From Lunularia cruciata (lineage: Eukaryota; Streptophyta; Marchantiopsida; Lunulariales; Lunulariaceae), in assembly GCA_948567375.1 (NCBI GenBank), contig OX419760.1, forward strand, positions 11,594,001 through 11,658,000: a stretch of DNA of 64,000 nucleotides, read 5' to 3'. Each line of letters starts with the position of its first letter. The first letter of the stretch is position 1. The translations under genes and the position numbers were made by a program. The notes beneath the pieces are model-generated. The model was not told where the DNA came from. It did not search any database and was given only the letters and a program-made list of their open reading frames with translations. Shown here piece after piece: positions 16,429 to 63,836 of this stretch.

Positions 16429-16924
16429 CCGACACTAGTTAGTAATGTGCGCACAAATTGAAATGTCTCACAAAGTGAAATTATAACCATTTATCAATTT
16501 CAAGCACCCACTCCATACCTCAATTAAATTTCAACAAGGGTGAAAACAACAAAGCTCAATCCACATTTGCTGCACTATAGGATTTCAAGAGCTCCTTGAG
16601 AAAATGGTTACTTATGTTTTTGCAACCACTAGCAAAGGAGCAAAGAGTGCTTATGTGCACACTTTGATGTGCACTAGCAAAGAGTGATGAGAAAATATAC
16701 AAAATGAGTACTCATCATTTTGCACAAATATTGGATTATTTGGATCATTTTGCACAAATATTGGATTATTTGGATGATCAAAACATTTTAGTCGAATTCA
16801 TAGTGTGAATAATAAGAAATTGGTGCAAAAGAGCATAGCTCTTAGCTACATGGCCACTTACTTGGTGCAACACGGAAGATGTCATGACATTTGTGGTGCC
16901 AAAGCTAGTTTTCTTGAAAGTTAA

Positions 16925-18403
16925 AGTGGTAGTATTGGTAGTCATCATTATTTTGGTAGTTGCTCATGGACTCTTTGATAGTGGCCAGATTTCATGTTAT
17001 AGCTATTAAACACATGGTGGGACTCATTATCACTTATATCGTCAAATGGACCGTTAGTGATGCCATTAGGATTGGAGACTTAGGTGTACAAAGAGGTGTA
17101 CTTTTGAAGTGTAGCTCCAAAGAGCTCACTTTTTTGATGTTGAGTCTTTGAGTTCTTAGCTATGGTGGACAAAGGCCAACGAGTGTCATTTAGAATCTCT
17201 TAGCTAGAGTGGGTGTAGCTTGAATATAATCAATAACCAATTGTTGAGTGGAGGATCAAGTTTAAATCTGATTTGAGTGTGATTTGAGTGGAAGAGCAAA
17301 CTTATTATATCAAAGAAGTGAAAGTCAAGGAAAAATTGGATGCAATAATTGAGGATGTTGGTGGTATCTCCAAGCATAGTAGATTGTTGATACTTTTGAT
17401 TGAGATCTTGGATTTCCTTAAGAGTGATCATGTATAGAAGCATTGTGTGATTTGCTATAGATTTGACAATGAGGTAGAAAATGTATGGAAGTGCTACCAA
17501 AATTTGGTGAAGATTGAGATTGAATTGAGATTGGTGTTCAATTGTGTTACTCAATGAGGCGAATCTAAAAGTGAGAGGTCAAATTGACAATTAAGAGTGG
17601 CAATTTGTAAAATTGGAGGCATATTTGAGAACTCATCTCCTTGGTTTAGGCATTTGGAGGTCTCCATCTACTCAATTTGGCCAAATTTGATAATTAATAA
17701 TGGATTTAAAGGTCAGCCAATTGTAATGGAGGTTTGAGAAATTGGAAATGGTGTCCATATTTGGAGGTCAAGTTGGCAAAGGTTGCCTAAGTTAGGTCAA
17801 ATTTTTTGGTGGCTTGTCCTAGATATTGCTCAAGTTGGTGGAGGTTCAATTTGGCAAGAAGAAAGGTCTCATTTAATTGAATTTAGCATTTTGAGGCATA
17901 AGGTTAGAATAGCTATGAAGGCCTAGAGGTTTGATTGATTGGCAAAGGTGTCCAAATTTGGAGTTTGAGTTGGTAGAGGGTGCCAAGGTAGGTAAAATTT
18001 GTTGGTGGCTTGTCCTAGATTCTGCTCAAGTTGGTGGAGGTTAACATGATTTGGAGAAGGTTCAATTTGGCAAGAAGAAAGTACTCATTTGGTATTTTGA
18101 GGCATAGGGCAAGAACAACTTGCTTGTTTGCATGAGACTAGCAAGTTTAGATGAGATTTTGGCAATTGTTTGGCAAAATTTGCACACCCTTCTAGATTAT
18201 ACATAATAAGGTTTGAACTCCAAATCTTTAGTTCTTAAACTAATGCCTTAGCCAATTGGTCCACCCTCTCTTGTTATCCTAACAACTAGTAGATTAATAC
18301 TTATACTCATGTAGTTTTGGCTAAGAAAGGTAATTTGATCCCATCCTTGGTGATCTTGGTAGTTTAGAGGTAGATAAACACTCATATTATGTCAAATACA
18401 AAA
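16925..18403 (+). repeat. Element A left LTR (5'-truncated)
   Basis: It is similar to the LTRs at 38.0, 47.0 and 53.2 kb, with shared blocks around the Asn-Ser-rich untranslated text 'GTGCAGCTCC...GAGCTCAC...GATGTTGAG'. The first part of the LTR (beginning TGGCACTTTAG in the 46982 copy) is missing here. The right end is just before the candidate primer-binding site TGGTGGTAGAGCCA at 18404. An antisense tRNA-like segment lies at 18200-18272. Confidence 0.75.
18200..18272 (-). other. tRNA-like segment inside the LTR, antisense to the element
   Basis: Read on the minus strand it has a D-arm/A-box-like block (ccaATTGGCTAAGGCAT) and a T-arm/B-box-like block with GTTCAAACC. The same cassette occurs in the LTRs at 25209-25275 and 54720-54790. 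Stems are imperfect, so it is a tRNA-derived relic rather than a working tRNA gene. Confidence 0.55.
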
Positions 18404-20089: not shown

Positions 20090-21120
20090 TTGATCATCTA
20101 CTTCCCTTTGTTCTTAGCCAATGATATGGTAATATTAGGATTTGACCCAACTCTAATTTTCTGGTTCGCTACCACATTTTGTGATGGTAGGATGATGTGG
20201 TTCCTAATTCTTGAGCAAAGGTGGTTAATAGTAGAGCTTACTTGGTTGAAGAACATGGGATCCATTCAAGTAGTAGCAATAGCTAGGTTGGAGGAGCGAC
20301 CAACTAGAATTGCCTTAGAGCAAGCTCAATTCAAACTTGGAGTCATCTTATTGGACAACCAAAGTGGGATTTTCTATTTGGTGGGACCTTTAAGGAAGGT
20401 CTATAAACATAAAGGGTCTTTTTAAACTTTGGTATGTAGACCTTTATGTTGGAGAAGGATGCAATAATTGATCTTGAGCTGAAGAAGACCAATATGGAGA
20501 GGTGTCCATTCAAATCCAAACATCTTTAGGGTGGTTCTACATAGTATATCACATTTGGGAAGCTCATTGTCCAAATTCAGCATGGTCATCCAATTGATAG
20601 TTCTATGGTGAGAGCTCAAGCCATTGCAATAGTAGTAGAGTCATTTGATGTGCTAGTTGGTGGAGTAGTGTTATACTCCATGGATTTTAGTATTGACTCT
20701 TTGGAGGAAATAACTTCCTATAGGCCAGGTGGTAGTCAAGTGAGAGACTAGTATGTTGCCTAGTGACTTGCTTTAATAATGGTAGTATTGGCTCATTATA
20801 GTCAAGGACCGTGGTATCAATTTAAGCTTTCAGTGGTTCCATTACTTGGATTGGTGACTTATTAGAGGGGAATGCCCATGTGGAGAATGCCCCAAAACTA
20901 GAAGAGATCAACAGATTTGAAGTATGAGTGGGATTGTTTTATCCACCTTGGATGTTCCATTTGGAGTTTTGAGAAGGCATTGCAGCAACATGCAAATCAA
21001 TTGATGCAATGGGCTTGGAGTGGAGCCTTTGTACTACCAAGAGACCAATATAAGGATGAGCCTTTTGAGTCGATTACCTTGTCACCTTTGGGTACCACAC
21101 TTATTGCTTGGTAGTATCCA
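20090..21120 (+). pseudogene. Element A protease and linker region, degraded
   Basis: A frame at 20090-20425 reads FLANDMVILGFDPTLIFWFA and DNQSGIFYLVGPLRKVY, matching 57137-57511 of element C and 41314-41682 of element B. Just after it the active-site DSG of a retropepsin, visible in C, is lost (stop and substitutions near 20425-20440). The rest aligns with the unrecognised segment between protease and methyltransferase of the other copies and has several stops. Confidence 0.6.
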
Positions 21121-21129
21121 ATAAAGGGA

Positions 21130-21645
21130 GTATCTTTATTAGAGTTTTTTGGTGGGATTAGCATTGGACTAACTATGGTACTACATGCAAGTATATGGGT
21201 TCAAAGGTACTTGTATGTGGAGAGAGATGAGACAAATAGGCAAGACCCACCACATCATGTGGTACACTTGGCCTGTTGGTATTCTAAGTTATTACTAATG
21301 TCAATAGTCAAAGGTTACCAAAAGACTTTACCAATAGACATTTCCTTGTTGGGGGTGCAAGATCTAGAGAGATATGGTCCCATTCATTTGGTGATTTTTG
21401 GGTGGCCATGTCAAGGACATACCCCATGCTGACCAAGGTCAAGGTCTACAAGATCTCCATTCCAATGTTTTTGGAAGATGTTCTATTTCTACAACATCTT
21501 CAAGTTCATCAATCCATTTCTATAGCCTACATTTTGGAGAACATCCCTTTGATAGATTATTCTCATACACTAGTGGTTGTGATTACACATCAGGTCTTGG
21601 ATAGGACCTACAATGTTGTTGGATGCAACCAAAGTTGGATTACTG
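21130..21645 (+). pseudogene. Element A DNA (cytosine-5) methyltransferase domain, first part
   Basis: One frame is open from motif I to just past motif IV: LLEFFGGISIGL (motif I, 21130-21170), VERDE (motif II, 21217-21231), PIHLVIFGWPCQGHT (motif IV; catalytic Cys codon 21409-21411, in frame with motif I). A stop follows directly after HTPC, and a frame change brings back the ENIPL (motif VI) text near 21535-21555. It is the best preserved N-terminal half of the three copies, without stops between motifs I and IV. The domain is interrupted at about 21645 by a foreign insertion and resumes at about 23820. It belongs to the DNMT3-like arrangement (canonical motif order). The enzyme cannot be made from this copy. 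Confidence 0.85.
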
Positions 21646-23820
21646 TGTCATACTTTGCATTTCTCTCTTTAGGAGCACATAGGTTAGTTGTGGAGCTTAT
21701 GGATCAAAGGTTGTGCATAGACTTGTCACTACTAATTTGAGTGCATGTGGTACCCAACCAGTAGAACTCTCCACTTTGTTTCTAAGATTCTTTCTATCGT
21801 GCAGGAGAGAAGCAAAGGGTAACCTAACTTGTCATCATAACACACACTCCTTATCTATTGGTCATCACTTCCAACATTACCAAGGAGAAAAACATATCAT
21901 ACCTAGAAGGAAGGAACCTAAGTGAAATGCCTACATACCGATCCAAGCCAATTGGGCATACAAACAGGCATGCAAGCACCGAGAGGATCCGATCACAAGA
22001 ATTTGATAATAACTCTCTATACTTTTTGTCGAAAAAGAGCTTTAGAGCCTTCTTACTCTATCATCAAGCTAATTTCAACTATACTCCAAGCCTCCCCCAA
22101 TCTATTTTTCAGATTTCAACCAACTTTTAATCCAAGTGTGGAACTTTTATGTCTTTTTATAAGGAAAAGTCTATAAAACTCATATGGATATAACCTTTTG
22201 TGTGTGACTTGGATTCAATAGAAAGCTTGTGAGATAAGCTTTCCAATTATATGAAATAATCTAAAATATGATCATGAAAACTCCCCTAACAAGCTCTCAA
22301 ACTTGGCCATTTTTTTGTAATTTTCACCCTCATTTTGAAATCCCTAATTTAGGGTTTGCTCTTGGTTCTTGGCAATGTTTCACTAAAATTCTAAATGAAA
22401 GGTAAACTTGATCCTCAAAAACACTCCAAAAGTCTAAAATCCTCAATCACCATTACAAAAATAGGAGAATTGCCAATCATTCATGATTGAAGAGAGAATT
22501 GCTCTATCAAACTTACGACAATATTTCAACAACACTTATTGCATCAACTCTCACTTTCCATGGACCCAAAGCTAACAAAATTTCTATAATAGCCCTCGTT
22601 TAACCCTCTACAAATTTTTATTGCCTAATTCAACCCCAATCCTTAGATATGGATCAATTCTTGAGCTGGGTTAACTTGTGAGCTCTACAGACCCAAGTAT
22701 ACTTGATCCAAGACCATGAATTCTCCTTTTGAGGAATTAATATGAAACCTTTTCAAAAATGTCAAAAACATAACCACCAACAACACTAGAAATTTTCATA
22801 AGGTGACTCAAACCACAACTTAAGGAGTGATCAAAACTCCAAACTGATCATCACTTCTTCTCCAACACCTTACATCCTTAAAGCACCAACTTCAACCAAC
22901 CAGATCTAGTTTGAAATTGACCCTAAACTAGAATTTCTTACACTCAACACTCTAAGCACTTTGTCTACTCTCTAACCCCATTGACAAATAATAAAAATGT
23001 CTCAAGAATCTCTCCAGATTGCCTACTTTGTGCTCTTGGATATGAATTCTACCTCCTTGATTAATCAATGATATCTCTCTGAAAATTTGCTCAAATAATT
23101 TGATTTCTATCTCTAGATTGTAGCTTGTCAGCTCTTCTCTATAACATGATCTTTTCTCCTTGAATGCCCTTCCCAAAATCCTTTGAAGGTCAAAAAAATC
23201 CCGATTTCTTACCTTGGGACCCAATCTTTTACAAGTTTATTATTTAGTCTCTTCAATTTTTGACAAATGGACCCCACAAGTCCACCTTGAAGCTCATGAG
23301 AAACATTGAGTTGTTCTCTATCTATAAGAGCACATAAACATATAAGTCCTACACTTGTTCATAAGTAAGCACTAGAAGGACAATAGGATTTGGGTTTCCC
23401 ATCATCAATTCCATGAATGCCGCCCCAAAATGTACCACCATCCAATCTAGTAAGTTGTCATGGTGTAGAGTCTAAAGCCTGATGAGTGGCAAATTGGGAG
23501 CATAGAACATCTCCTACTCAAATTCCCTCTTTGATGCCTAGTTTCACGCTCTACTACAACTCTCACTCTTAATGTCCTCCTCCCGCTCAAGACTCCTCTA
23601 ACCAAGAAACACCTTATTTCAAATCTCCACCATGTATATACATCAAAGCCCTTGAAAAGGATAAGATTGTAACCCATGTGGCCAATCACAAACATGTACA
23701 TAGATTGCTCATATGGCAATAGCTCAACCGTGGGATCCGTCATACAACCTACTCCACTAATATGGAGATAAACCATGCTAATTTACTTTTCCATGGCTTT
23801 GCAAACCATAACATGACAAC
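21645..23820. mobile_element. insertion of about 2.2 kb inside the methyltransferase of element A (possible solo LTR)
   Basis: Comparison with elements B and C shows extra sequence here: left and right flanks rejoin within motif VIII (text for CLCLWWTN). The insert begins near TGTCATACTTTG and ends near CATAACATGACA, giving TG...CA ends, and contains no pol domain. The segment near 21915-21965 (AAATGCCTACATACCGATCC) resembles the conserved 'GCCTACGTA' block near the polyadenylation end of plant LTRs. I infer a solo LTR or non-autonomous LTR element; a target duplication is not clear. Orientation is uncertain. Confidence 0.5.
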
Positions 23821-24045
23821 ATGCACATTATCTTTGTCTTTAGTGGATGAACCTCTTACCTAAAGAGGTTTCATAATGTGCTTATGATAGGATTCAATAA
23901 CTAGCCAACTTTTGTGTTCATTATATTTTGGATGTTGGGCATAAGTCTCAAATAGTGGTAGTGGTTGATAGCTCACCTATGGTAGTAGTGAACCTTCTTG
24001 GACAACCTAGAGATGCAAACCTACAATCATGAGTTTCCCAAGCTC
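23821..24045 (+). pseudogene. Element A methyltransferase domain, second part
   Basis: It continues the C-terminal half seen at 58751-58992 of element C: LCL-like motif VIII text, then segments equivalent to VVVADRSPMAVVNLVGQPR (here VVVVDSSPMVVVNLLGQPR in one frame). Several stops and frame changes are present. It is followed after about 50 bases by the LTR, whereas elements B and C continue with linker and, in B, reverse transcriptase. Confidence 0.65.
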
Positions 24046-24099
24046 ACATTCTTTTTGAGAGGGAAATCTTGGACTTATTTGGGACTCACTATTACAACA

Positions 24100-25310
24100 A
24101 TTTGTCATGCCGTTTGTAGTGTCGCATCTAGATTGCTCTGACACTATAGTTGTTGTGATAGTAGTTAGAGGTATTTCAGGAGTTTTCCATAGACTACTTT
24201 CTAACGGTCAGATTTTTTGTTTGGGGTATTGATTTCACAATGGGGCCCATCGTCACTTTTCACCGTTTGCACCGTCAAGTGTGCCATCGGTAGGACCATT
24301 AGGGTTTTTGACCTAGCTCAAGTCCAAGGGTATACTTCCAAAGTGCAACTCCAGAAGAGCTTACTTCTTTGATGTTGAGCCTTTGAGTTTTTGGCTATGG
24401 TAGACAAAGGCCGGCTAGCGTCACCTAGATTCTTTTAGCTAGAGTGGGTGTGGCTTGATTGTAATCAATGCCCAGTTATTTACAGTTTATAGAGTGACAG
24501 ATCAAGTACTGATATGAGTTGAGTTGATTTGAGAGTTGTAAACAATCCAATTACATTAGAGAAGTGAAGTCAAGGAGAAATTGGATGTAGAAATTATGAT
24601 TGTTGGTGGTATCTCCAAGTGCAATGGATTGTTGGTAGCTCGATCAAAGTTCAAGTTTTCCCTGGTGTGCAGAAGCTCGTTGCTTGATGCAAATCTGGCA
24701 GTAAGGCAAATGGTGTGCAGAAGTGCTGGCTAATTTTTGAGCAAATAAGGAGCAATTTTTTGAGTAGTAGTTGTGATTTTGAGCTTAGGAGGTGAAGGTA
24801 TGATCAATTTGTTGCGAGTTGGGCTCCGAAAGTAAAATTGAAGGTGGAGTTAAGAACCTATTCTCATCAATTTTTGATTTGAAAAAACCCATTATTCAAT
24901 TTGGCTTGAGTGGAGAGTTAGAAAAGGATTTGGCAGTCAGCCAAACTTAGGATTTATGGCAGATTTTGGCCAAATTTAGAGGAGGTTTGCTAGATTTGGA
25001 GGAGTTTTGAAGTTGCAAATTTTGGCCAAATTTATGGCCTCATTTGGTTGAATTTTGGCATTTAGAAGCTTCAAGGCATATGGCTGTGGGCTATGAGAGG
25101 CTACAATGGTCTAGAAAGGCCTACAAGGTAGCTTGTTGGCATGAGGCTAGCTAGTTTAGAGTAGATCTTGGTCATTGTTTGGCAAAATCTGCCCATCTTG
25201 CTAGATTGTACGCAATAGGGTTTGACCTCTAGATCTCTTATTCCTAGATTGGTACCCTAGCCAACTGGTCCACCCTCACTTGTTGTCAAAGTGATTGGGT
25301 ATAATGTGCA
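24100..25310 (+). repeat. Element A right LTR (both ends truncated)
   Basis: Closely similar to 53210-54790 of element C. Its first about 150 bases are missing and its left edge is fused to the interior just past the methyltransferase, at an ACAACAA microhomology. It contains the antisense tRNA-like segment at 25209-25275. The right edge ends near 25310, before a minus-strand gypsy fragment. Confidence 0.75.
25209..25275 (-). other. tRNA-like segment in LTR, antisense
   Basis: Minus strand: CCAGTTGGCTAGGGTACCAA (D-arm/A-box-like) followed about 25 bases later by GGTCAAACCC (T-arm/B-box-like). It is the counterpart of 18200-18272 and 54720-54790. Confidence 0.55.
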
Positions 25311-38006: not shown

Positions 38007-38996
38007 GTAGTGTATTTTAGACAATGTGTGTCCATTGCTCTACAAAGGGTAGTTGTCACGCCATTTGTAACATCGCATCTAGATTGCTCAAACATTGGAG
38101 TAGTAGTGATAGTAGTTAGAGGTATTTTGGCAATTACTCATATACTCCTTTCCGAAGATCAGATTTCATATTTGGGGTACTAACTACATAGTGGTGCTCA
38201 CCGTCACTTGCATTGTTCACATTGTCAAGTGTGCCGTCAGCAAGACCGTTGGGTGAGACCTAGGTCAAAATCAGGAGTATACCCTAGAAGTGCAGCTCTA
38301 TAGAGCTCACTTTTTTATGTTGAGCCTTCAAGTTCCTAGCTAGAGTGGATAGAAAGCCGACGAGCATCTCTTGGAGTCTTTTAACTAGAGTGGATGTGGC
38401 TTGACTGTAATTAATACCCAATTGTTGGCAGATTGTTGAATGATAGATCAAATATTGATCTGATTGAGTGTGATTCAAGTTGTATAAACAAATTGATTAC
38501 ATCAAAGAAGTGAGAGTCAGTGAGAAATCAAGTGTAGGAATTGAGGGTGGTGGTGGTATCTCCAAGCCTGATGGATCATGTACCTTGATCGTAGTTTTTA
38601 TTTCCTTGGGAGTGATTGTATGTGGGAGTGATGGCCAAATTTTGAGCAAAGAGAAGCAATTTTCAGGCGATAGTTATGATTTTGAGCTCATGAGGTGAAA
38701 ACAAGACCAATTTGGTGCGAGTTGAGCTCAAAAAGTGAAATTAAAGGTGGAGTTTGGAACCTATTCCCGCAAATTAGAGATTTGAAGATCCTTATCTTTC
38801 CAATTTGTCTTGAATGAAAAGTTAGCGGAGCATTTGGCGGTCAACCAAATTTAGTGATTTTTAGGGATACATTAGATTTTATGTCAAATTTTATGAAGGA
38901 TTTATGTCAGATTTTGGCAAGAAGAAATTTGATCCCATTCTCTGTGATCCTTGTAGCTCAAGAAGTAGATAAGTACTCTGATTATATCAAATGCCA
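38007..38996 (+). repeat. Element B left LTR (truncated)
   Basis: Aligned with 46982-47534 and 53205-54922. The first part and an internal block including the tRNA-like segment are missing. Its right end (ATGCCA, then AA, then TGTTGGCAGAG) corresponds exactly to the end of the LTR of element C. Confidence 0.75.
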
Positions 38997-39561: not shown

Positions 39562-41155
39562 ATGAAGGAGGAGATTGACTCCAAGTTAAAATTTAACATA
39601 AGAGTTAATTTAGTTGAGAGTGCACGTGGTGTGTCTGCACTTGTTGTTGGACATGGACAAGATTTATGGGCTTGGGGCAATGGTACTCATTCTACCAGAG
39701 TAAGGCCTATGGCCTTTGGAAGCCCTAGGCCTTACTCTCATAGAATGGGTACCATTGAGTTGGATGATTTCATCCAAGAGTTCAAAGTTGGTGTGATCTA
39801 TAGCAAATGTGCAACCCAACTCTATTCATGCCCTTCATGGCATGGAAGTGGTTAGTTCAACACTTGGAAGGTCCGCCAATGGATAACTACCATGAGTTCA
39901 AGGGAGCTCACTTAGAGGAGATTGAGCTATGGAGACAATTTTGGTCTCCAAACTATGTCTGTATCCCTTCAAGCTTGGTTTCTAGGGGTAGATTGGTTGT
40001 ACGCTCATATGAGTTCTAGCTCTAGTAGCATTGGTGGATCTCTTGGAGATGGTGCTTCTATAAATAGAGGTACTATTATAGGAGGTGGTTTAGTATCAAG
40101 ATTTAATCTCATGGTGGAGTACTTCCAATGTTTGAGACAGAACTATCATGGAGTGCCAAACTGACAAGTTGAGGAGCTTGCAAGAGTTCTAGCGGAAGGC
40201 TTGAGAGAGCCTATGGGAGGCATACACTCGCATGAGATGGCTGATCAATTTTACTCAAGGAGTTATTGAGCCCAAGCAGTCCTATTTTGGTATGGGATAC
40301 TATAGGGAGTTACAACGTAGAGTCCATATGCTATGTTGTTATAGGCTACTTTGCTTACTTTGGCAGTGGTCTTTGGTTTGGCTGAGCATATAAAGCTCCA
40401 TCTGGTGAATGAGAGAGTGGTGACATGTGGATTTGGTAGGGAGACCTCATCCACAATTGTTACTTCTTCCAGAGTGAAGTAGAGTACATCATGCCATGTT
40501 GGTTTTGAGGACAAGGTGGACAACCCAAATCCTATGGAGTGAGTAGAAGGTCTATTGAGTTAGACCTTTCTCTTCATTTTTGGGTCAACATCAGCCAATG
40601 AGTGGTAGTGTTGCTTGTTGGACTTGTGGTGGACCTCACTATAGGAGAGAGTGCACTCAGGACAATGGATTTGGTACCTCTAGTGCATCACAATCAACAC
40701 AAAGACATTATGAGCATTGCCACAGATTTAGCCACAATAATGACTAATGCTTTGACCAACACCCGGAGTTACGGAGTGGTACGGCTATGGTAGGTGGTAA
40801 AGGAGCTCCATGTGGAGGAGGAGGTGGAAGACGTGGTGGTAAAGGATCCACACCTAGTAGAGATGTAGTACTTGCCCTTAATTTTGATACATCCATGACT
40901 ACTTGGATTGAGCAAAGATTGGCTAGCATGGCCATAGCTGAGAAGAAATCAGATGCGGGTGCTGAGGCTTCCACCTCATATGACAATGATAGAGACATCT
41001 TTGACTTCATATGCAGAGCAACACAAGTAGGAGCAGCACAAGCTATGGATGCCATAGTGACTAGGAGTGCAGTACGTGCTCTAGAGCCTAGTGGAGCATC
41101 AATGGAGTTAGACCCACAGAGAGGAGAGGTTGGTAGACATGTTAGACTTCCCTAG
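39562..41155 (+). pseudogene. Element B gag (capsid and nucleocapsid), broken
   Basis: The frame from 39562 matches element C gag from 55429 (MKEEIDSKLKFN / MREEIDSELEFD; MGTIELDDFIQEF). The middle contains the LEGPPMD-Y-HE-K-AHLE motif and a Gly/Ser-rich segment. Near 40610-40770 are two zinc knuckles: CWTCGGPHYRREC (CX2CX3HX4C) and CEHC...CFDQHPEL, the second broken by a stop. A Gly-rich basic stretch and a region ending ELDPQRGEVGRHVRLP close it at 41155. Several stops and frame changes interrupt it. A local inverted repeat (39682-39753) replaces sequence found in C. Its role would be assembly of virus-like particles and RNA binding. Confidence 0.75.
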
Positions 41156-41313
41156 TCTTTTACACTCTCTAAGGCACTACATACAACATCCATGGCTCCT
41201 AGACATCCTAGTGTAGGTGTAGTAGGTGGTGATAAGGTGCATGATAGACTACCTACTTGTAAGCCACCTACTATTACACAGAGTAAGTGTAGCACAATGT
41301 TAGGAGCGATTAA

Positions 41314-41700
41314 TTGATTATGCACTTTCCATTATTCTCAACCAATGACATGTGTACATTGGGAGTTGACCCAACCCCAATGTTCTGGTTGGCTGCCAAG
41401 CTTTGTGAGAGTAGGGATGATGTGGTCCCTACTACTAGAGCAGAGGTGGTTGATAGTGAAGTTGAATTTGTTGAGGAGCATGGGATCTACTCTATGACCA
41501 ATGGTTTGTGGCAAGAAACAACGGCTAGATTAGAAGAGTTACCAGCTAGACCGGCCTTTGAGCAAGCACGGTTTACACCTGGAGTTGTCCTATTGGATAA
41601 CCAAAGGAGGATTTTTTGTTGCGTGGGACCTTCAAGGAAGGTCTATACACCACAAAGGGTCTTACTTGACTTTGGTGCGTAACTCTTTATGTTGGGGAAG
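41314..41700 (+). pseudogene. Element B protease region (retropepsin, mutated active site)
   Basis: Open frame 41314-41682 with FSTNDMCTLGVDPTPMFWLA, a helical Glu-rich segment and FTPGVVLLDNQRRIF, then RVLLDFGA. The equivalent in element C is VLLDSGAQPLML, the Asp-Ser/Thr-Gly retropepsin motif; here Ser has become Phe, so the catalytic triplet is lost. It follows gag by about 160 bases. In a live element it would cut the gag-pol polyprotein. Confidence 0.7.
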
Positions 41701-42392
41701 GCCACAATTATCGGTTTGGAGTTATGGAAGATCAATGTAGAGAGGTGTCCGTTTCAAATCTAGACATCTCTAGGTGGTGGTTCTACATAGTTCTACATCA
41801 CATGCGGAGAGCTTGTTGTTCAAATTCAGCCTGATCATCCAATGATAGCTTGGTGGTGAGAGCTCAGGCCATTACAACCTTAGCTGAGTCATATGATTGT
41901 TAGTTGGGAGAGCACCGTTATATCCCATGGGTTTCAGTATTGACTATTGGGAGGAGATAGCCTCCTATAGAACAGGTTGGTAGTCAGGTGAGGGATGGGT
42001 ATGTTTCCTACTAGTATGCTTTAGTACTAGTAGTCTTGGCTCACTACAATCATGGACCATGGCAACATCAATTTCCGCTTTTAATGGTTATGTCACTTGG
42101 CCTAATGATTTATTGGAGAGGAATGCCCATATGGAGGATAATCTAATACCAAAGGAGATCACTTAGATTTGGAGTACAAGTAGGATTGTTCTATCTACCT
42201 TGGATGTTCCATTGTGGAGCTCAAAGGAGGCATTGCAACACCATGCAACAACATGCAGATCGGTTGGTGCAACATGCTTGGAGTGGAGCCTTTGTACCAC
42301 GAGGAGACTAGTGTAAGGATGAGCCTCTAGGGTTGATTACCTTGAAACCTCTAGATATCACACTCATTGCTTGGTAGTATCCTATAGAGTGA
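41701..42392 (+). pseudogene. Element B unrecognised segment between protease and methyltransferase
   Basis: The about 700 bases correspond to 57540-58222 in element C and 20440-21129 in A. Readable parts include, in C, WSYHYWPGDLLEGNAHAE-like text and DEPPESISLTPLDTTLIAWQ just before motif I. I do not recognise a family. Its presence in all three copies shows that it belonged to the element; it could be the N-terminal extension of the methyltransferase or the C-terminal part of the protease. Confidence 0.5.
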
Positions 42393-43140
42393 GTATGTCT
42401 ATTGGAGTTGTTCAGTAGGATTAACATTGGACTAGTTGCGATATTACATGCGGGTATATGAGTACAGAGGTACTTGTATGTGGAGAGAGATGAGACTACT
42501 AGGCAAGTCTCTCTACATCATGTGACACACTTGGCCTATTGGTATCTTGAGTTATTATCAATGTCAACAATCAAGGGTTACCAAAAAACCCCTAATAGTA
42601 GACATTTCCTTGTTGAGGGTGCAAGATTTGGAGAGATATGGTCCTAATTCATTTGGTGATTTTTGGATGGCCATGTTAGGAACATACATGTGTTGGCCGA
42701 GGTTTAGGTCTTTAGGATCCCCATTCTGGTGTGTTTTGGGAGATGTTACATACACTACAACATCTCCAAGTTCATCAATCCATTTCTCCATCTTACATTT
42801 TGGAGAACATCCCTTTGATGGGTGATTCTTGCACCCGAGTTGTGACAAGTACACATCAGGTCCATTCTTGGATGGAACCTGCCATATTGTTAGATGCAAT
42901 TAGAGTGGGATCATGGGCTCATTGTCTTTGTCTATGGTCAATAAACCTCTTACATAGAGAGGTTCAACAATGTGCTTATGATGGAATTCAACAACTAGAC
43001 CATATCATTGTTGATGAAATCTTGGATGTTGGGTGTCAATCTCAAATGGTGGTAGTGACTAATAGGTCACCTATGGCAGTGGTGAACCTAGTTTGAAGGC
43101 CTAGAGCCGGTTTTCCCACACTTATGAGTTTTCTAGGCTC
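42393..43140 (+). pseudogene. Element B DNA (cytosine-5) methyltransferase domain
   Basis: Text parallel to elements A and C: LLELFSRINIGL (motif I, from 42393), VERDE (motif II), GWPC followed by a TAG stop (motif IV; Cys codon 42674-42676, stop 42677-42679 where A and C have Gln), LENIPLMGD (motif VI, about 42800-42825), AHCLCL-W (motif VIII, degenerate) and VVVTNRSPMAVVNLV near the end. There are further stops, including TGA at 42459-42461. The catalytic motif is truncated by nonsense mutation, so no enzyme is possible from this copy. It lies upstream of the reverse transcriptase in the same orientation, which proves it is part of the retroelement pol region. Confidence 0.85.
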
Positions 43141-43799
43141 CCATGCTTTTTAAGGGGGAGGTCCTAGATTGGTTTGGGACTCACAATTACAATAATTGAT
43201 GGAGCCCAATGCTAATAAGAGAGAGCGGGCAATGGTTTTTTATGCTAGTATAACTGCTTTTCTAGTAGTGTCAAAGGCATCTAGGTACCAAGTATTAGGT
43301 CAAGCTATGGACCTAAAATATTTGACCTAGATTGTGAGCCTTGGTATCAAGTGTTAGGTCAGGCTATGAACTTGAATTGTTTGACCTAGACTGTGAGCCT
43401 TGGTTTGATAGAACAACGTAGGATGCACTTGATAAGCATCACCACTTGGACACTTGTGAGCTCTATGCCTATTGAGACAATTTATGCATATGCCGGAGGT
43501 GATGGACCGAATGGGTAGGATATTCTTGGGACATAGCCAATTGCTACTAGGGAGAGTGGTCTACTTGGAGTCCATCCACGTGAGCATGGTCTACTTGGAT
43601 TACACCCTTGGTCTACTTGGGATGCAACTAGAGGACATATGGAGCTTGTAGCTAGATCAGGGTGAGTTTTTCACACTAAGGTTGGGACCTCTAGTGGTTG
43701 GAAGCATGATACTACTACTCCAAAGGGCCCAATGTAGTAGCTAGTTAGTACATCTTCCACTCCTACTATAGTTATAGAGGATACTTGGGAGCCAAATCT

Positions 43800-45180
43800 T
43801 AGATCCAAGCTTACAAGAGGGGAAAGATGGAGAGTTTGGAGGTTCTTGAGGAGCTACACGAGTTGTTTGCCTTCAATATGAAGGATTTGGGTGTCTGAAG
43901 GGACATGGTATACGGATTGAGCAGACTAGCAATACACAAGTTTTTGGACATCCTTATTGATATAGTGACATGGAGAGAACATTGATTCAGAGTTGGAGTT
44001 TGAGGTTGGTTTGGTGGAGATTTCACATGGTGAGTATGAATCAGCTATAGTGATGCCAACCAAGAAGGATATGCATGGCAACTACACAAATAGGTAGATG
44101 TGTGGAGATTACCGTCCCTTCAACCAACCAACTTGGGCGATCGGTATACCATGCTTACACCAAAGGGTATCTTTGATATAATTGGGTATGCAAAGGTCTT
44201 TAGTACTTTGGATCTTAAAGCATGATATCATTAGTTGCTGATCAAGGAGGAAGATAAGTCCAAGATAGAATTTTGGACTATTGATCCTCACGGAAAGGAT
44301 GTGTTATGTTATTGGAGTTCTTACCATTTGGGTTAAAGAATGCTCTTGCTGAGTTCTAGAGGGTCATGGATAGGATCCTAACTGGATTGGATTTTGCTTA
44401 GTGCTATATTGATGACATTTTGGTCTATAGTACTACTATGGAGGAGCATGAGAGATAGTTGTTGGAGGTGTTTGAGAGGTTGAGATGTCATGGACTCAAA
44501 TTACGTCTTGGGAAGTGTAGGTTCTTCCATGAGCAAGTTGAGTATTTGGGTCGCACTATCTACCCCAAAGGACTTGGTGTTTAGCAGACCAAAGTAGAGG
44601 CTACATATTCCTCAACCTATGAATGTGAACAAACTGTGAGTATTCCGTGGGTTGGAGAACTTCTATAGCTGGTATGTTAAAGGATTTAGTGCTATTGCCA
44701 AGGCCTTGATGAAGCTAACCAAGCTTACACAGGAGTCTTGTTGGAGAGATGAACAAGAGAGAGCTTTTATAGAGCTCAAGAAGAGGTTGACATCTACTCT
44801 TATTTTGAGGAGAACAATCAAAGGACAAATATTCTAGCTTCACATTGATTGGAGTATGTTGGAGCTTGGAGCAATACTCACCCAACATGATGATGAGGGG
44901 AAGGAGTTTGTGGTGGCCTACGCTAGTTTCTCCAACTATTCAACAAAAGCAAAGTATAGTTCATATGAGGGAGAGTGCTTGGCAGCAATATAGGTAGTAG
45001 CACATTTCTGATGTTACCTATTTGTAACCCCTTTACTCTCAGCACTGATCATCAACCATTGAAGTGGTTGATAGAGTCCAACAAGCTTTTGTGGAAGCTT
45101 GCACGATGAGCTCTGATTTTACAAGAGTATGTTTTCATTGTTATTCACAGACCTAGAGTGGTGAACCATGATGCCAATAG
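43800..45180 (+). pseudogene. Element B reverse transcriptase and RNase H
   Basis: Recognisable gypsy text in order: LHELFAFNMKDLGV (about 43850-43895), SAIVMPTKKD-HGNY (44041-44085), MCGDYRPFNQ, FSTLDLKA, FLPFGLKNALAEF, the active-site YIDDILVYS (44405-44431), LGKCRFFHEQVEYLG, then the connection FYSWYVKGFSAIAKALMKLT and LTSTLILRR, and RNase H text LHIDWSMLELGAILTQHDDE, FVVAYASFSN, YEGECLAAI (44840-45000) and DHQPLKWLIES. The two RT Asp residues remain. Stops are frequent, mostly TAG at former Gln positions. The family is Ty3/gypsy; the protein copied element RNA into DNA in the particle. Confidence 0.9.
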
Positions 45181-45499
45181 GTTGGGTAGAAACCCATGTC
45201 CCAGCCAGCAAGATCAGACCAGAGCACTTTTGCATGGTGAGATAGATGAGGAGATGGTGCCAGGTTGGCATGTATTTGCCTTTCTCTATATATTTTTTGA
45301 GGCTTTGGTGGTATCTCTCTCAACGCATACAGGAGGAGTTATTGAGGTCACATATCTAGAGAGTGGAGATAGTGGTACAGTTCAGCGAGACATTTATGAT
45401 GATGTCTTAATAATGGATTATCTTTGCATTGGTGTTGTGGGTGGCATAGTTGGGGCCAAGGAGAAAGATTGTGTTCTCTAGCAAGCCAGATGGCTCAGA

Positions 45500-46340
45500 T
45501 TGGAGTGTAGACACTTGCTTCATGTATGGGAGGATGGTAGAGTGAGAGTAGTACCACTTCCATCTCAAAGACCAAACTCGGTCCGTCATGCTCATGAAGA
45601 GTTAGGATATTTTGGAGTAAAGCATATATATAGCTTACTCAGAGTCATTATTGGTGGCACGGTATGCAGACCAATGTACAACAATTTGTTGCAAGATGTG
45701 TGGTTTGTATCAATTTAGAGCATCATTTAATGCTCATATGCCATAGTTACACCCATTACCTATCATAGGATTGGGTCATTGCTAGAGTTTGGACTTCCTT
45801 AGACCTTTACCATTGACTGTGAGACATCATTGGTATGTTTTGGTGATGGTGGAGCACTTCTCCAACTAGATTGAGTTTGTGGCACTTCTTGACAAGTCCA
45901 GTGAAGGGACAACTTACTTGTTCTTGGATTGGGTTCTCAGTTATTTTGGTGCACCAGTTGAGGTTTTGACTGATCAAGGTACAAAGTTCTTGGGAAAGTC
46001 TCAGGTCTTGTGTGACAAGGCTTTGATTGATCATTGTACTACCTCCCAAGATCACCCTAAGGCAGATGGCTTAGCAGAGAGAGTGGTTCAGATAGTGAAG
46101 AGAGGATGGCAAAAGTATGGTTTGTAGAGAGCCCACTTGGAAGATTGGGATCTCTAGTTACCTTGGTTGGCCATGGGCTATTGGTTCAGTTGGCAAGCCT
46201 CCTTAGCATCATTCTCTCCTTACTTTCTACTCTATGGACGAGATCCAGATTTACTTGCAGCCATTTGTTGAGATGCTACTATAATGTTGGACTTGGATGA
46301 TCCAGATGTATAAATGAACACATGTTCTCAACAGGCAGTG
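45500..46340 (+). pseudogene. Element B integrase core
   Basis: The zinc-binding N-terminal text (HAHEELGYFGVKHIYSLLR, 45585-45640) is followed by the catalytic core: SLDF-type region degraded near 45790, a TDQGTKF (second catalytic Asp, about 45968-45990) and DGLAERVVQ (catalytic Glu, about 46063-46090), spaced as in D,D-35-E integrases. Upstream, frames near 45880-46127 read as VALLDKSSEGTTYLFLDWVLSYFGAPVEVL in pieces. Stops interrupt the sequence. It would have joined the cDNA to host DNA. Confidence 0.85.
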
Positions 46341-46441
46341 ATCTTTTAAAGAGTGACGCTAGTCGCCTTTGAGAAATTAGTGATTACTTAGCATGGGATA
46401 CCTTATGCTATGCTACCATTCAAGGAGGAGGTTATAGATCC

Positions 46442-46810
46442 TTGATCCATAGATTTCATCTAGGTGATTATGTATATCTACAACATATAGCACCAATGAC
46501 ACTTGATGTTTCTATAGGCCGTACTATCTTGAGAGTGCACAAGGTTTTGTCATCTGGAGGCCTTGTGTTGGAAGGATGTGATGGTGTTGTTTGGAAGGAT
46601 CATGTGTGCAATTTTTTGCCATGCCACCTCCCAAACATTGATGGTGCTATGGAACCAAGCTTGGCACTTGTACATGTAGGCTTGTGGTGTATGTTTTGCG
46701 GCTCTTTTGGTGGAGTTGCTATTATGTTAGTGTGTGATGGCTTTTTGAGAGGATGGCATATAGCATGTATGACTCCTCAAGGACAATGGTTATGTCCTAG
46801 ACGTACTTGA
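46442..46810 (+). pseudogene. Element B integrase C-terminal module with a PHD-finger-like end
   Basis: A 122-codon open frame. Residues 1-62 read as the integrase C-terminal SH3-like module (LGDYVYLQHIAP, RTILRVHKVLSSGGLVLEG, WKDHVCNFLPCHLP). Residues 83-121 (46688-46804) show a PHD-type zinc pattern: CMFC, then VCDGF, GWHIAC, and WLCPRR. This fits Cys-X2-Cys-X11-Cys-X2-(Cys lost to Phe)-X4-His-X2-Cys-X8-Cys-X2-(Cys lost to Arg), with the typical Trp before His and the W-X-C-P end. The last loop is shorter than usual, suggesting a small deletion. PHD fingers read histone tails; at an integrase end such a module could guide integration, as chromodomains do in chromoviruses. That role is inferred. 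Confidence 0.65.
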
Positions 46811-46979: not shown

Positions 46980-46981
46980 TG

Positions 46982-47534
46982 TGGCACTTTAGAGTTCATG
47001 TATGACTTATGTGTGAGTTGTGCTTCTATAGTGTATGATGTTGACAACGATGTATGTTGTATAGCAATGTGCATATGCACAACAACTATCATGCCATTTG
47101 TAGAATCACATCTAGATTGCTTGGACACTAGAGTAGCAATGATAGTAGTTAGAGATATTTTGGTAGTTACTCATAGACTACTTTCCAATGGTCAGATTTC
47201 ATGTTAAGTGTATTGACTACATGGTGGGATCCATCGTCACTTGCACCATTTGCACCATCGAGTATGCCAATAGTAGGATCATTGGGGTGAGACCTAGGTC
47301 AAAATCAAGAGTATACCCTAGAAGTGCAGCTCCAAATAGCTCACTTCTTTGATGTTGAGCCTTTGAGTTCTTAGCTAGAGTTGATAGAAAGCTGGCAAGC
47401 ATCACTTGGAGTCTCTTAGCTAGAGTGGATGTGACTTGATTGTAATTAGTACCCAATTGTTAGTAGATTGTTGAATGACAAATCAAGTACCAATCTAATT
47501 GAGTGTGATTTGAGTTGTGTAAAAAAATTGATTA
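46982..47534 (+). repeat. Element B right LTR, 3'-truncated
   Basis: Begins TGGCACTTTAG; LTRs of the family end in TGCCA, giving the short terminal inverted repeat TGGCA/TGCCA. It matches the left LTR up to about GATTA and then stops. Confidence 0.8.
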
Positions 47535-47537
47535 TTA

Positions 47538-47643
47538 TGGCACTTTAGAGTTCATGTATGACTTATATGTGAGTTGTGCTTCTATAGTGTATGAGGTTGA
47601 CAATGATGTATGTTGTATAGCGATGTGTATATGCACAACATAA
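47538..47643 (+). repeat. second LTR head fragment
   Basis: Starting TGGCACTTTAGAGTTCATGT at 47538 it repeats the first about 105 bases of the LTR at 46982 almost exactly, then ends. It is a partial LTR placed directly after the truncated one. Confidence 0.85.
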
Positions 47644-53135: not shown

Positions 53136-53850
53136 CTTTTTCAACTCTTCTTTCTTCTTCTTCAATTGCAATAACAATGGACATACAATCTTTGACAAGT
53201 ATTCCATCTGTCACGCCATTTGTAGTGTCGCATCTAGATTGCTCGGACACTAGAGTTCCAGTGATAGTAGTTAGAGTTATTTCAGCAGTTTCTCAAAGAC
53301 TACTTTCCGACGGTCACATTTGGTGTTCATGGTACTGACTTCACGATGGGGCCCACCGTCACTTTGCATCATTCATACCGTCAAGTGTGATGTCTACGTG
53401 ACCATTAGGGTTTTAGACCTAGCTCAAGTCAAGGGGGTATACTTTCAAAGTGCAGCTCTAGAGAGCTCACTTCTTTGACGTTGAGCCTTCAAGTTCTTGG
53501 CTATGGTGGACAGAGGCCGGCAAGCGTCACCTCTATGCTGGAGTGGGTGTGGCTTGACTGTAATCAGTGCCCAGTTGTTGGTAGTTTATAGAATGACAGA
53601 TCAAGTACTGATCTGAGTTGAGTTGAGTTGAGAGTGGTAAACAATGTGATTACATCAGAGAAGTGAAGTCAATGGGAAATTGGATGCATGAACTTTGAGT
53701 GTTAGTGGTATCTCCAAGCTCGGTGGATCATTGGAAGCTAGATTCAAGTTCAATTTTTCCCTAGTGTATAGAAGCTTGTTCAATTGATGCAAATTTGGCA
53801 GTAAGGTAGACGGTATGCGGAAGCGCTGGCTAATTTTTGAGCAAAGAAGG

Positions 53851-55428: not shown

Positions 55429-56673
55429 ATGAGGGAGGAGATTGACTCTGAGTTGGAGTTTGACACAGGAGCTGATTCAGTTGAGAATGCACTTGGTGTG
55501 TCTGCACCGTTGTTGTGGGATATGGATGAGATTTATGGGGCCTCCAAAGGCCCTAGGCGTTACTCTTGTACAATGGGTACCATTGAGTTGGATGACTTCA
55601 TCCAAGAGTTTGATAGTTGGTGTGATTTGCAGCAGATGTGGAACTTGACTTTGTTCACACCCTTCATGGCATGAAAGGAGTTGTTTCAACATTTGGAAGG
55701 TCCGCCGATGGATGACTACCATGAGTTAAAGAGAGCTCATTTGGAGGCGATTGAGTTATGGAGACAGTATTGGTCTTCAAAGTATATCTCTATCACTTCA
55801 AGTTTGGTGGCCAAGAGTAGATCGGCTGTACCTACGAGTTCTAGCTCGAGTAGTGTTGGTGGAGCTAGTGGAGGTGCTTTAGCTGGAGATAGTGCTACTA
55901 CGAGTGGAGGTACCGCTGTAGGAGGTGGTGTGGTACCGGGGTTTAACCCCATGGTGGAGTTCTTCCAATGTTTGAGGTATAACTACCAGGGAATGCGGAT
56001 TGACAAGCTGAGGAGCTTGCAAGAGTTCCATTGGAAGGCTAGAGAGAGCCTATGCAAGGCATACACTCGCATGAGGCAGTTGATCAGTTTCACTCAAGGA
56101 GTTACTGAAGCCCAGGCAGTCCAGTTTTGGTATGGGATACTTGACAAGGGGTTGCGATGTAGAGTTAGTGATGCTATGTTGATACATGCTACTTCACCTA
56201 CTTTGGCAGTGGTCTTTGGTTTGGCTGAGCGTATTGAGCTCAACATGGTAGAGGAGAGGGTGGTGACATTTGGATTTGGTAGGGAAACCTCATCCACGGC
56301 TGTGACTTCTTCTAGAGTGCAGCAAAGTGCACCACGCCCGGTTGGTTTTCAAGGACAAGATGGATATCCTAGATCCTATGGAGCAAGTGGAGGGCCTATT
56401 GTGGTTAGATCTTTACCTTCATTTTTGGGTTAGCATCAGCCAGTGAGTGGTGGTGTTGCTTGTTGGACTTGTGGTGGACCTCACCATAGGAGAGAGTGTA
56501 CTCAAGGCAGCGGACCTGATACCTCTGGTGTATCACAACCAGCACAAAGGCAGTGTGAGCATTGCCATAGATTTGGTTACACTAGTGACCGGTGTTTTGA
56601 CCTACACCCGGAGTTATGGAGTGGTAGGGTTGCTATGGCAGGTAGTAGAGGAGCTCCAATTCATGGAGGATGA
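55429..56673 (+). pseudogene. Element C gag (capsid, nucleocapsid with two zinc knuckles)
   Basis: A single frame carries the whole gag with in-frame stops only at about 55675 and 56431. N-terminal part: MREEIDSELEFDTGAD, then MGTIELDDFIQEFDSW. The capsid-like part has LEGPPMDDYHELKRAHLEAI, a Ser/Gly/Thr-rich linker, then FNPMVEFFQCLRYNYQGMR, RQLISFTQGVTEAQAVQFWY (retrotransposon gag core) and VVFGLAERIELNMVEE. The nucleocapsid part has CWTCGGPHHRREC (CX2CX3HX4C) and CEHCHRFGYTSDRC, a CX2CX4HX4C knuckle with His changed to Tyr (a C-to-T change). It ends at a stop after a Gly-rich basic segment. About 415 codons, a normal gag size. Gag assembles the particle and packages element RNA. Confidence 0.85.
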
Positions 56674-57136: not shown

Positions 57137-57850
57137 ATGATGTTGGGGGCGGCTCAGCTAATTATGCGGCGTCCTTTGTTTTTGGCCAATGACATGTTTA
57201 CATTGGGAGTTGACCCAACCCCAATGTTCCGGTTGGCTGCCACGCTTTGTGAGAGTAGGGATGATGCAATTCCTACTACTAGAGTAGAGGTGGTTGGTAG
57301 TGGAGCTGACTTAGTCGAGGAGCATGGAATCCATTCAGTGACCAATGGTTTATGGCAGGCAATAGCGGCTAGACTGGAGGAGTTGCCAACTAGACCGGCC
57401 TTTGAGAGAGCACGGTTCACACATGGTGTTGTTCTATTGGATAACCAAGGGGGATCTTCTGTTTGGTGGGACCTTCAAGGAAGGTCTATACACCACAGAG
57501 AGTCTTGTTAGACTCTGGTGCGCAACCCCTTATGTTGGAGAAGGCTGTAGTGGTCGGTCTGGAGTTCGGAAGATTGATGTGGAGAGGTGTCTATTTCAGA
57601 TCAAGACATCTTTAGGTGATGGTTCAACACAATATATCACACGTGGGAAGCTTGTTGTCCAGGTTCAGCCTGGTCATCTGACTGATAGCTCGGTGGTGAG
57701 AGCTCAGGCTATTGCGATGATAGCTGAGTTATATGATGTGCTAGTTGGGGGAGCAATGTTATACCCCATGGATTTCAGCATTGACTATTGGGAGAAGACA
57801 ACCTCCTATAGACCTGGTTGGCAGTCTGGTGAGGGATGGGTATGTTGCCT
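57137..57850 (+). pseudogene. Element C protease region (retropepsin DSG present)
   Basis: The frame at 57137-57511 reads FLANDMFTLGVDPTPMFRLA and the Glu-rich helical part; a frameshift near 57470 then leads to VLLDSGAQPLMLEKAVVVGL (about 57508-57565), a clear Asp-Ser-Gly retropepsin active-site motif with its hydrophobic flank. A further frame gives KIDVERCLFQIKTSLGDGST, VVRAQAIAMIAELYDVLVGG and AMLYPMDFSIDYW. The block is conserved in A and B. It would cleave the polyprotein. The catalytic residues are intact here, but the frame is broken. Confidence 0.75.
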
Positions 57851-58222
57851 ACCAGTATGCTTCAGTAGTGGTAGTCTTGGCTCACTATAGTCTAGGACCA
57901 TGGCTGCATCAGTTTTAGCTTTCAGTGGTGCAATTATTGGCCTGGTGATTTGTTGGAGGGGAACGCCCATGCAGAGGATACTCTAGTACCAAAGGAGATC
58001 ACTCAGATTTGGAGTACAAGTAGGATTATTCCATCCACCTTGGATGTGCCATTGTGGAGTTCAAAGGAAGCATTGCAATAGCATGCAGATCGGTTGGTGC
58101 AACAGGCTTGGAGTAGAGCCTTCATACCATCAGGAGATGAATGTGAAGATGAGCCTCCAGAGTCAATTTCTTTGACACCTCTAGATACCACACTCATTGC
58201 TTGGCAGTACCTAGTAGAGGAG
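57851..58222 (+). pseudogene. Element C unrecognised segment before the methyltransferase
   Basis: Short frames read YHYWPGDLLEGNAHAE-like text, then VQQAWSRAFIPSGDECEDEP and ESISLTPLDTTLIAWQYLVE, the latter in frame with motif I of the methyltransferase. No known family recognised. Present in all three copies, so it was part of the element protein; it may be the N-terminal part of the methyltransferase module. Confidence 0.5.
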
Positions 58223-59014
58223 GTATGTCTATTGGAGTTGTTCAGTGCGATTAGCACTGGACTAACTGCGGTATTACAGGCGGGTATACAAGTATAGAGG
58301 TACTTATATGTAGAGAGAGATGAGACTTCTAGGTGAGTTTCTCTACATCATGTGGCACACTTGGCCTATTGGTATTGGGAGTTATTACCGATGTTAGCAG
58401 TCAGAGGTTACCAAAAGGCCCTACCTGCAAACATTTCCTTATTGGGAGTGCATGACCTAGAGAGACATGAGCCTATTCACTTGGTGATTTCTGGATGGCC
58501 ATGTCAAGGACATACATGTGCGGGGCTGCGGTTTGGGTCTTTAGGATCCTTGTTTTGGTGTGTATGGGAGATGTTATGGATACTACAACATCTCAATGTT
58601 CATCGGTCCATTTCTCCAACTTACCTTTTGGAGAATGTACCTTTGATGGGTGATTCTCACACCAGAGTGGTGGCGAGTACACATCAGTTCCATTCTTGTA
58701 TGAGACCGGCTATATTGTTAGATGCAGCTAGAGTGGGATCACAGGCTCATTGCCTTTGTCTTTGGTGGACAAACCTCTTACCCAGAGAGGTTTTACAACA
58801 TGCTTATGATGGGATTCAACGACTTGACCACATCCTTATTGATGACATCTTGGATGTTAGGTGTCAGTCTCAGATAGTGGTAGTGGCTGATAGGTCACCT
58901 ATGGCAGTAGTGAACCTAGTGGGACAACCTAGAGCTACATTTCCCACACTCATGAGTTTCCTAGGCTCTTATGCTTTTCAAGAAGCAAGACTTGGACTTC
59001 TTTTGGAACCATAG
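58223..59014 (+). pseudogene. Element C DNA (cytosine-5) methyltransferase domain (DNMT3-like)
   Basis: C5 methyltransferases move a methyl group from S-adenosylmethionine to cytosine. One frame of about 260 codons, with in-frame stops only at 58295-58297 and 58334-58336, carries the motifs in canonical order: I LLELFSAISTGL (about 58229-58264), II YVERDE (about 58307-58324), IV LVISGWPCQGHT (catalytic Cys 58502-58504), VI LLENVPLMGD (Glu-Asn-Val at 58631-58639) and VIII AHCLCLWWTN (58745-58774), where other enzymes have Arg-X-Arg. A conserved tail (VVVADRSPMAVVNLVGQPRA, then FPTLMSF) follows. The linear order differs from the permuted plant DRM enzymes, and the spacing and text around motifs I, VI and VIII resemble DNMT3-type enzymes. 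It lies between the retropepsin and, by comparison with B, the reverse transcriptase. The stops and lost arginines make it inactive. Confidence 0.92.
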
Positions 59015-59152
59015 TTATAGTAGTTGGTGGAGCCCAATGCCAATGAGAGAGAGCGGGTGATGGATTTTTGCACCGGTATTACCGCTATTCAAGCAGTGTT
59101 AGAGGCATCCATGCATCAACTGTCAGGTCAGGCTATGGACTGTGAGCTGGCC

Positions 59153-63719: not shown

Positions 63720-63794
63720 TTGGGTTTCACTACCTCCCTCTTTCCCTCTATTGGCTCCCTCATAACCCCTTCCTCCATGGTAAGTGGGATTTAG

Positions 63795-63836
63795 GCAATT
63801 CCTTTGGATATGGCCTCTTCCTCCACAACCAAAACA
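63795..63836 (-). other. Element E gag zinc knuckle
   Basis: CFGCGGRGHIQRNC on the minus strand, a textbook CX2CX4HX4C retroviral-type knuckle that binds element RNA. It is followed by YHGGRGYEGANRGKEGGS-like basic Gly-rich text leading to the protease frame. Confidence 0.9.

Follow-up and report, generated by a model that had tools for sequence, protein, structure and literature searches.

Why would a retrotransposon of a land plant encode a DNA methyltransferase (DNMT)? The question is raised by 64,000 nucleotides of Lunularia cruciata (assembly GCA_948567375.1, contig OX419760.1, positions 11,594,001 to 11,658,000, forward strand), hereafter the window, in which an earlier note, made from the letters alone, had pointed to a cytosine methyltransferase domain at 58223-59014 inside a Ty3/gypsy element. 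In this work, we find that the domain is, with little room for doubt, a C5-methyltransferase of the DNMT3 type carried by a Ty3/gypsy element. It is also likely that the element copies in the window are old, dead members of a land-plant family of such elements, whose first open reading frame (ORF) encodes gag, protease and the DNMT3-type domain; reverse transcriptase (RT), RNase H, integrase and possibly a PHD finger would follow, probably past a stop, and the terminal repeats would stand in the order A-coding-B-A-B.

DNMT-carrying retrotransposons were described in 2018 from the alga Klebsormidium and from dinoflagellates (de Mendoza et al., PMC5890265). No report of such elements in land plants was found among the titles and abstract beginnings listed in searches of the open-access literature, which is no proof of absence. 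By these searches, what appears new here is the occurrence in land plants, with close relatives in Marchantia, as well as an ORF that links the DNMT to gag and a possible PHD finger.

Identification of the methyltransferase domain

Three related elements were recognized by blastn, namely A (from 16880), B (38054-47640) and C (from 53209), together with a fourth left end at 24103; the domain in question belongs to copy C. Translation of 58223-59014 confirmed the motifs in one frame and in the canonical order, that is, motif I (LLELFSAISTGL), VERDE, GWPCQGHT, LENVPL and AHCLCLWWTN, with two in-frame stops, one on each side of VERDE. This interval lies within the domain, whose true span is longer, about 58097-59146.

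A protein search with the copy C region returned 66 proteins at E <= 10 among 899 candidates, the best at 4.6e-88 with 59% identity over 99%, and 35 of the 66 carry a precomputed PF00145 match. In direct scans of the relatives (numbered P0001 onwards), the PF00145 cut-off was reached by four of five in one set, the miss being P0056, and by five of seven in a second, where P0084 and P0083 (0.051) fell short; P0001 scored 6.2e-11. A family profile built from 45 relatives was run against the six frames of the window, with stops as X, no speed filters and E <= 0.1, and all its matches fell in the three element copies, some of them in shorter pieces (scores in Table 1). Residue-shuffled controls gave a match in one of 20 sets (0.0022) and none at E <= 10 in the other 19; they used the default speed filters and are thus somewhat milder than the search itself.

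The absence of any C5-methyltransferase profile match had been named beforehand as the outcome that would speak against the identification. Direct Pfam scans of the window pieces indeed gave no match to PF00145, because the copies are decayed, whereas the relatives and the family profile do match. The blank was therefore discarded as evidence against a methyltransferase, and the relatives' PF00145 matches together with the profile matches on the copies bear the assignment out.

Copies A, B and C are dead: they contain stops and frameshifts, and the motif VIII arginines were lost through C-to-T type changes. None keeps motifs IV, VI and VIII intact, as C retains PCQ and ENV but lacks the RxR of motif VIII, which is also missing from A and B. 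In copy B, a stop stands immediately 3' of the catalytic Cys codon.

Class of the methyltransferase

The motif order I-IV-VI-VIII-X is not permuted, and the closest solved relatives, by sequence and by fold, are DNMT3 enzymes; on both grounds the proposal of a DNMT3-like rather than a permuted DRM-like domain holds. DRM enzymes are circularly permuted, with VI-X before I-V. Plant DRM2, permuted unlike the element domain, was the second-best family by sequence (8.7e-12) and matched profile positions 60-185 near its C-terminus. Against the catalytic domain of animal DNMT3A/3B, the element domain shows 23-26% identity in structural alignments and differs in its retroelement setting and at motif IV, which reads PCN in the animal enzymes and PCQ here. 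PCN is a DNMT3 trait, which also stands in the printed DNMT3A line of the structure search; in the family alignment, however, 41 of 45 rows have Q at this position, three have a gap, one has Y and none has N.

The best DNMT3 structure in the Foldseek search scored 1.2e-19, using a second AlphaFold model (the first had a predicted local distance difference test score, pLDDT, of 60). Among viral models the best match was a phage enzyme at 1.3e-17, a value from a different library that compares only roughly with the former. A search of viral contigs with P0001 gave no pattern match, and a viral origin of the element's DNMT is not indicated. Structures of DNMT1, CMT and MET1 were absent from the sequence and fold match lists, an absence that we did not use as exclusion. 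A PDB search with one piece of copy A returned 11 lines, 10 of them DNMT3A, with a best E of 0.24, which is not significant.

In a tree of 42 rows with a DNMT3A stretch as sole outgroup, copy C falls in a 20-row group (support 100/100), together with every one of the 12 bryophyte rows that bear a name. Measured along the tree, the row closest to copy C is Riccia (91/88, with no star), and the end branch of copy C is long (0.48). The joining of DNMT3A with P0085 was flagged as long branches meeting, and no conclusion was taken from it. P0085 is a single protein with a PF00145 domain ahead of an RT that looks of DIRS type by eye.

Relatives and their hosts

Close relatives of the DNMT are, as judged from predicted proteins, encoded in liverwort and Sphagnum genomes. 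Those named among the matches listed come from Calypogeia fissa, Marchantia polymorpha, M. paleacea, Riccia sorocarpa, Sphagnum troendelagicum, S. tenellum and S. fallax; of the 19 long relatives, 14 bear the name M. polymorpha and stem from two annotations of this species. A widened search retained 263 of 7996 scored proteins at E <= 0.001; the best 120 of these are mostly of jgi source, and no relative named Klebsormidium appears among the matches listed, including those 120. Mobile elements with the means to write epigenetic marks thus appear to exist in land plants, a model species among them. Among 191 fetched proteins, motif IV reads PCQ in 101, WECQ in three and neither in 87, many of which are fragments; P0082 and P0083 have WECQ in place of WPCQ at the catalytic loop.

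Organization of the element copies

With the long relatives as queries, tblastn located gag, protease and DNMT in copies A, B and C; in copy B it also located RT, RNase H, integrase and one more stretch at the C-terminal side (Table 1). Copy B hence shows the Ty3/gypsy order of protease, RT, RNase H and integrase by tblastn, the protease being recognized by its DSG motif. In copy C, the name protease likewise rests on that motif, within the active site VLLDSGA (VLLDSGAQPLML) near 57511. The domain had been placed between a retropepsin and the RT: a protease does precede the DNMT, but an RT follows it only in copy B, since the homology of copy C ends near 59190 with no RT after its DNMT. In copy A, the DNMT runs up to the start of the fourth copy.

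When the window pieces were scanned with Pfam, no gag, CCHC or protease match appeared, and the copy B integrase reached only E 0.023 against rve, below the cut-off. The PHD-like stretch 3' of this integrase keeps six of eight zinc ligands by eye and aligns with P0083 (PHD 2.3e-9). P0083 itself has its DNMT between RNase H and integrase, and the PHD finger follows the integrase. Among the relatives, RVT_1 and RNase H were found in P0068 and P0073, and the integrase core in P0084.

Table 1. Coordinates of the parts of the DNMT-carrying elements in the window
Feature	Position	Strand	Evidence or remark
Copy A, left end and leader	16880..18278	+	
Copy A, DNMT3-like domain, first part	21061..21660	+	family profile 1.2e-43
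Copy A, other sequence, about 2.2 kb, splitting the DNMT	21661..23819	+	no similarity elsewhere in the window
Copy A, DNMT3-like domain, second part	23820..24112	+	family profile 8.6e-15
Fourth copy (A'), left end and leader, abutting the copy A DNMT	24103..25294	+	81% to left end of C
Copy B, A1 terminal repeat, left end	38054..38499	+	82% to A2
Copy B, gag region	39724..41212	+	tblastn P0070
Copy B, protease region	41560..41850	+	
Copy B, DNMT3-like domain, decayed	42324..43419	+	family profile 3.4e-84 and 7.7e-25
Copy B, two stop codons	43735..43740	+	in frame with the following RT
Copy B, RT and RNase H, several frames	43786..45523	+	tblastn P0068, 68% over 101 at 44300-44602
Copy B, integrase	45690..46388	+	tblastn P0083, 39% over 233; P0084, 69% over 127
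Copy B, PHD-finger-like stretch 3' of the integrase	46688..46798	+	PF00628 E 0.033, below cut-off
Copy B, B1 repeat	46980..47084	+	99/105 identical to B2
Copy B, A2 repeat	47086..47534	+	366/446 identical to A1
Copy B, B2 repeat, right end	47536..47640	+	
Copy C, A-type terminal repeat, left end, right border approximate	53209..53652	+	
Copy C, gag region, two CCHC-like knuckles by eye	55522..56670	+	tblastn P0070, 51% over 380
Copy C, protease (retropepsin), frame changes inside	57430..57935	+	tblastn P0068/P0070, translation
Copy C, DNMT3-like domain, decayed; motif VIII RxR changed to CxC	58097..59146	+	family profile 5.3e-123, profile 2-347

Reading frame that carries the DNMT

The relatives, which were seen as proteins only, suggest that the DNMT is linked to gag. 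P0067 (1278 aa), labelled 'CCHC-type' by a source annotation, contains gag, CCHC-like knuckles and a protease (LLDSGAQPLMLGK), and then the DNMT up to the protein end. Among 77 fetched proteins with the motif X pattern, ends recur 93-99 residues past this motif (P0005, P0009, P0022, P0049, P0067, P0071, P0086, P0126), at 115-119 residues (P0099, P0100, P0103, P0112), at 136 (P0096, P0111) and at 148 (P0092, P0109, P0122, P0127); these places span different subgroups, and other proteins, many of them fragments, end elsewhere. Because the ends of many relatives recur at certain places not far behind the DNMT, gag, protease and DNMT probably form one ORF that ends before the RT. The two stops of copy B fall near the relatives' end place, with the RT start next in the same frame; other in-frame stops occur as well, and the coincidence is weak by itself. 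We infer that read-through or a second ORF would yield the RT, and that the DNMT would be produced at Gag level. The single ORF spanning protease, DNMT and RT that had been anticipated for intact copies agrees with the joined DNMT and RT of P0068 and P0073, but not with the many relatives that end before the RT.

Terminal repeats

The four left ends (A, A', B and C) begin with TGTCAYG, and the A repeat runs into the leader. Copy B does not carry the same long terminal repeat (LTR) at both ends: A1 stands at the left and B1-A2-B2 at the right, which in this one copy gives A-coding-B-A-B. The two repeat pairs have diverged unequally, A1/A2 at 80 of 446 sites and B1/B2 at six of 105 (Fisher p 0.0015); without CpG-context changes, the differences are 58 and four, respectively (p 0.0055). 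This inequality, and the purine run AGGGGG directly before B1, as at an ordinary 3' LTR, would suit a plain LTR element in which a 105-bp piece was later duplicated locally. Such an origin is nonetheless unlikely, as all four left ends pass from A into the leader without B, whereas a plain LTR would carry both parts, and gene conversion of B1/B2, 450 bases apart, would also raise their likeness. Local gene conversion, or a younger B2, could explain the unequal divergence. In copy C, ATCAGAG stands at 53654-53660, just 3' of the A repeat; it resembles the initiator-methionine tRNA primer site of plant LTR elements, and would be odd for DIRS-like ends.

Relationship to described elements

The order A-coding-B-A-B is that of DIRS elements in the legend of Fig. 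1e of PMC5890265, and the legend of Fig. 4c gives the Klebsormidium gypsy element the same repeat structure. KnitGypsy-Dnmt3 of Klebsormidium nitens, as described there, shares with the window elements the Gypsy-type domain set, a non-permuted Dnmt3-type domain in the coding part and, by figure legend and for copy B, the repeat order. It differs in that its DNMT is assigned to the Pol polyprotein ORF, while here it seemingly lies behind gag and protease in an ORF ending before the RT; moreover, it comes from an alga and the relatives found here from land plants. The word 'PHD' is absent from the main text of PMC5890265, whereas the elements described here have a possible PHD finger. SymbioDIRS-Dnmt3 of Symbiodinium, according to the same paper, has the same repeat order and a Dnmt3 domain in one ORF with the RT, but a DIRS RT and a tyrosine recombinase in place of the Ty3 RT and DDE integrase seen here. 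Section 5 of PMC12344493 refers to these reports as LTR Copia and DIRS, which disagrees with the Gypsy of PMC5890265.

The earlier note had left open whether this was a related or an independent capture. Since copy B has the same A-coding-B-A-B repeats, we favour kinship, with the window elements as a land-plant branch of the Klebsormidium Gypsy-Dnmt3 kind, a comparison of descriptions, based on one copy and a figure legend. That elements of the land-plant lineage captured a host DNMT3 separately is rather improbable. Related domains do occur in other settings (P0083, between RNase H and integrase; P0085, before an RT that is DIRS-like by eye), and PMC5890265 describes the two dinoflagellate DIRS types as having arisen by separate captures; against a separate capture here stand the gypsy pol type and the repeat order, both as described for KnitGypsy-Dnmt3 in that paper.

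Selection, CpG content and points against the proposed element

The conservation of the protein among relatives fits purifying selection on the DNMT. Several observations weigh against the element and the methylating role proposed for it. In the window, gag, protease, integrase and PHD were named by their homology to relatives, and the Pfam scores of these stretches themselves are absent or below the cut-off. Eight relatives (P0056, P0063, P0068, P0072, P0077, P0082, P0083 and P0084) continue into or past the RT start, in some cases perhaps through predicted introns, and two Marchantia gene models, P0068 and P0073, join DNMT and RT. The right end is visible in one copy only, and its repeats diverge unequally, as set out above. 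The ratio of non-synonymous to synonymous change (dN/dS) between window copies is 0.45-0.51 over 276-316 codons, with 11 stop-bearing codons excluded in each pair, and in one of the three copy pairs the third codon position evolves faster at p < 0.05; these values are compatible with selection followed by decay and are no proof of selection. The observed/expected CpG ratio is 0.13-0.31 in A-C and 0.64-0.70 in three gene-bearing stretches; in a neighbouring element without a DNMT it is 0.12, a loss as strong as in A-C, and CpG depletion was therefore rejected as a mark of self-methylation. Finally, the KnitGypsy-Dnmt3 domain gave no methylation in yeast, a result that its authors call inconclusive, while retroelement DNMT3 domains of Symbiodinium methylate CG there (PMC5890265).

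Proposed role of the methyltransferase

From the anatomy of the elements, we give roughly even odds to the DNMT serving to methylate the element's own complementary DNA (cDNA). The methyltransferase would be translated together with Gag and protease, packaged as Gag-PR-DNMT in the particle and then freed by the protease; the free enzyme would act de novo, either on the double-stranded cDNA before integration or on the new insertion just after it, and each new copy would thereby have host-like methylation from its arrival. The likeliest benefit would be that the cDNA is not taken for foreign DNA and comes to lie in tolerated chromatin.

Of the possible benefits, we rank this escape from foreign-DNA handling first, and self-limitation, the main alternative, second. 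The same anatomy would then serve the opposite end, with the DNMT silencing the element's own new copies, so that the host is harmed less and the element lives longer. A DNMT apparently in the Gag ORF, and hence perhaps abundant, would suit this, as would the CpG loss of the window copies, which methylated elements also undergo; the DNMT-free neighbour has lost CpG equally, however, selection on an element for self-silencing is weak, and host methyltransferases already silence elements. We regard self-limitation as unlikely, although it is raised as a possibility in the discussion of PMC5890265. A non-catalytic task, such as DNA or RNA binding or a part in particle structure, is very improbable: the WECQ of three of the 191 fetched proteins indicates that the loop can change in some members, but of 45 aligned relatives at least 40 retain each catalytic column of PCQ, ENV and RxR.

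A wider and more doubtful proposal is that a single gypsy lineage acquired its DNMT3 writer, and the PHD reader next to the integrase, before land plants arose and has carried them ever since, both being selected in liverworts, Sphagnum and the window's host, and that in Marchantia the element might supply the only DNMT3-type activity. The Marchantia host methyltransferases listed in PMC5784723 are five, one MET, two CMT and two DRM, with no DNMT3 in the list; PMC12344493 states that land plants do have DNMT3. If the proposal is true, the element would own a write-and-read chromatin system produced at Gag level. The long ORFs of DNMT elements in Marchantia polymorpha, a species with good genetics, would make the benefit of an element-owned methyltransferase directly testable. 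They also carry a warning, as bryophyte protein entries named 'DNA (cytosine-5-)-methyltransferase' can be retroelement proteins.

Other features of the window

No tRNA and no Rfam match above the gathering scores were found in the window. On the minus strand, adjacent ORFs at 2-655 and 966-1295 resemble RNA polymerase subunits, with an Rpb2 domain 6 (PF00562, 2.1e-22) and, in the adjacent ORF, a sub-threshold Rpb1 domain 5 (0.0037). By eye they resemble insertions from giant viruses more than host genes; scanning viral contigs turned up no relative of them. A piece of an initiation factor 2B subunit gene (PF01008, 3.1e-68), likely a host gene, lies at 11636-12484 on the minus strand, and four head-to-tail copies of a 112-base period occupy 15457-15916. 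O-methyltransferase pieces were found at 33461-34480 (PF01596, 2.4e-9, and a second at 3.3e-4, below the cut-off). A second Ty3/gypsy element lies at 59881-63917 on the minus strand; the family profile found no DNMT in its six frames, and its long frames resemble pieces of protease, RT, RNase H and integrase.
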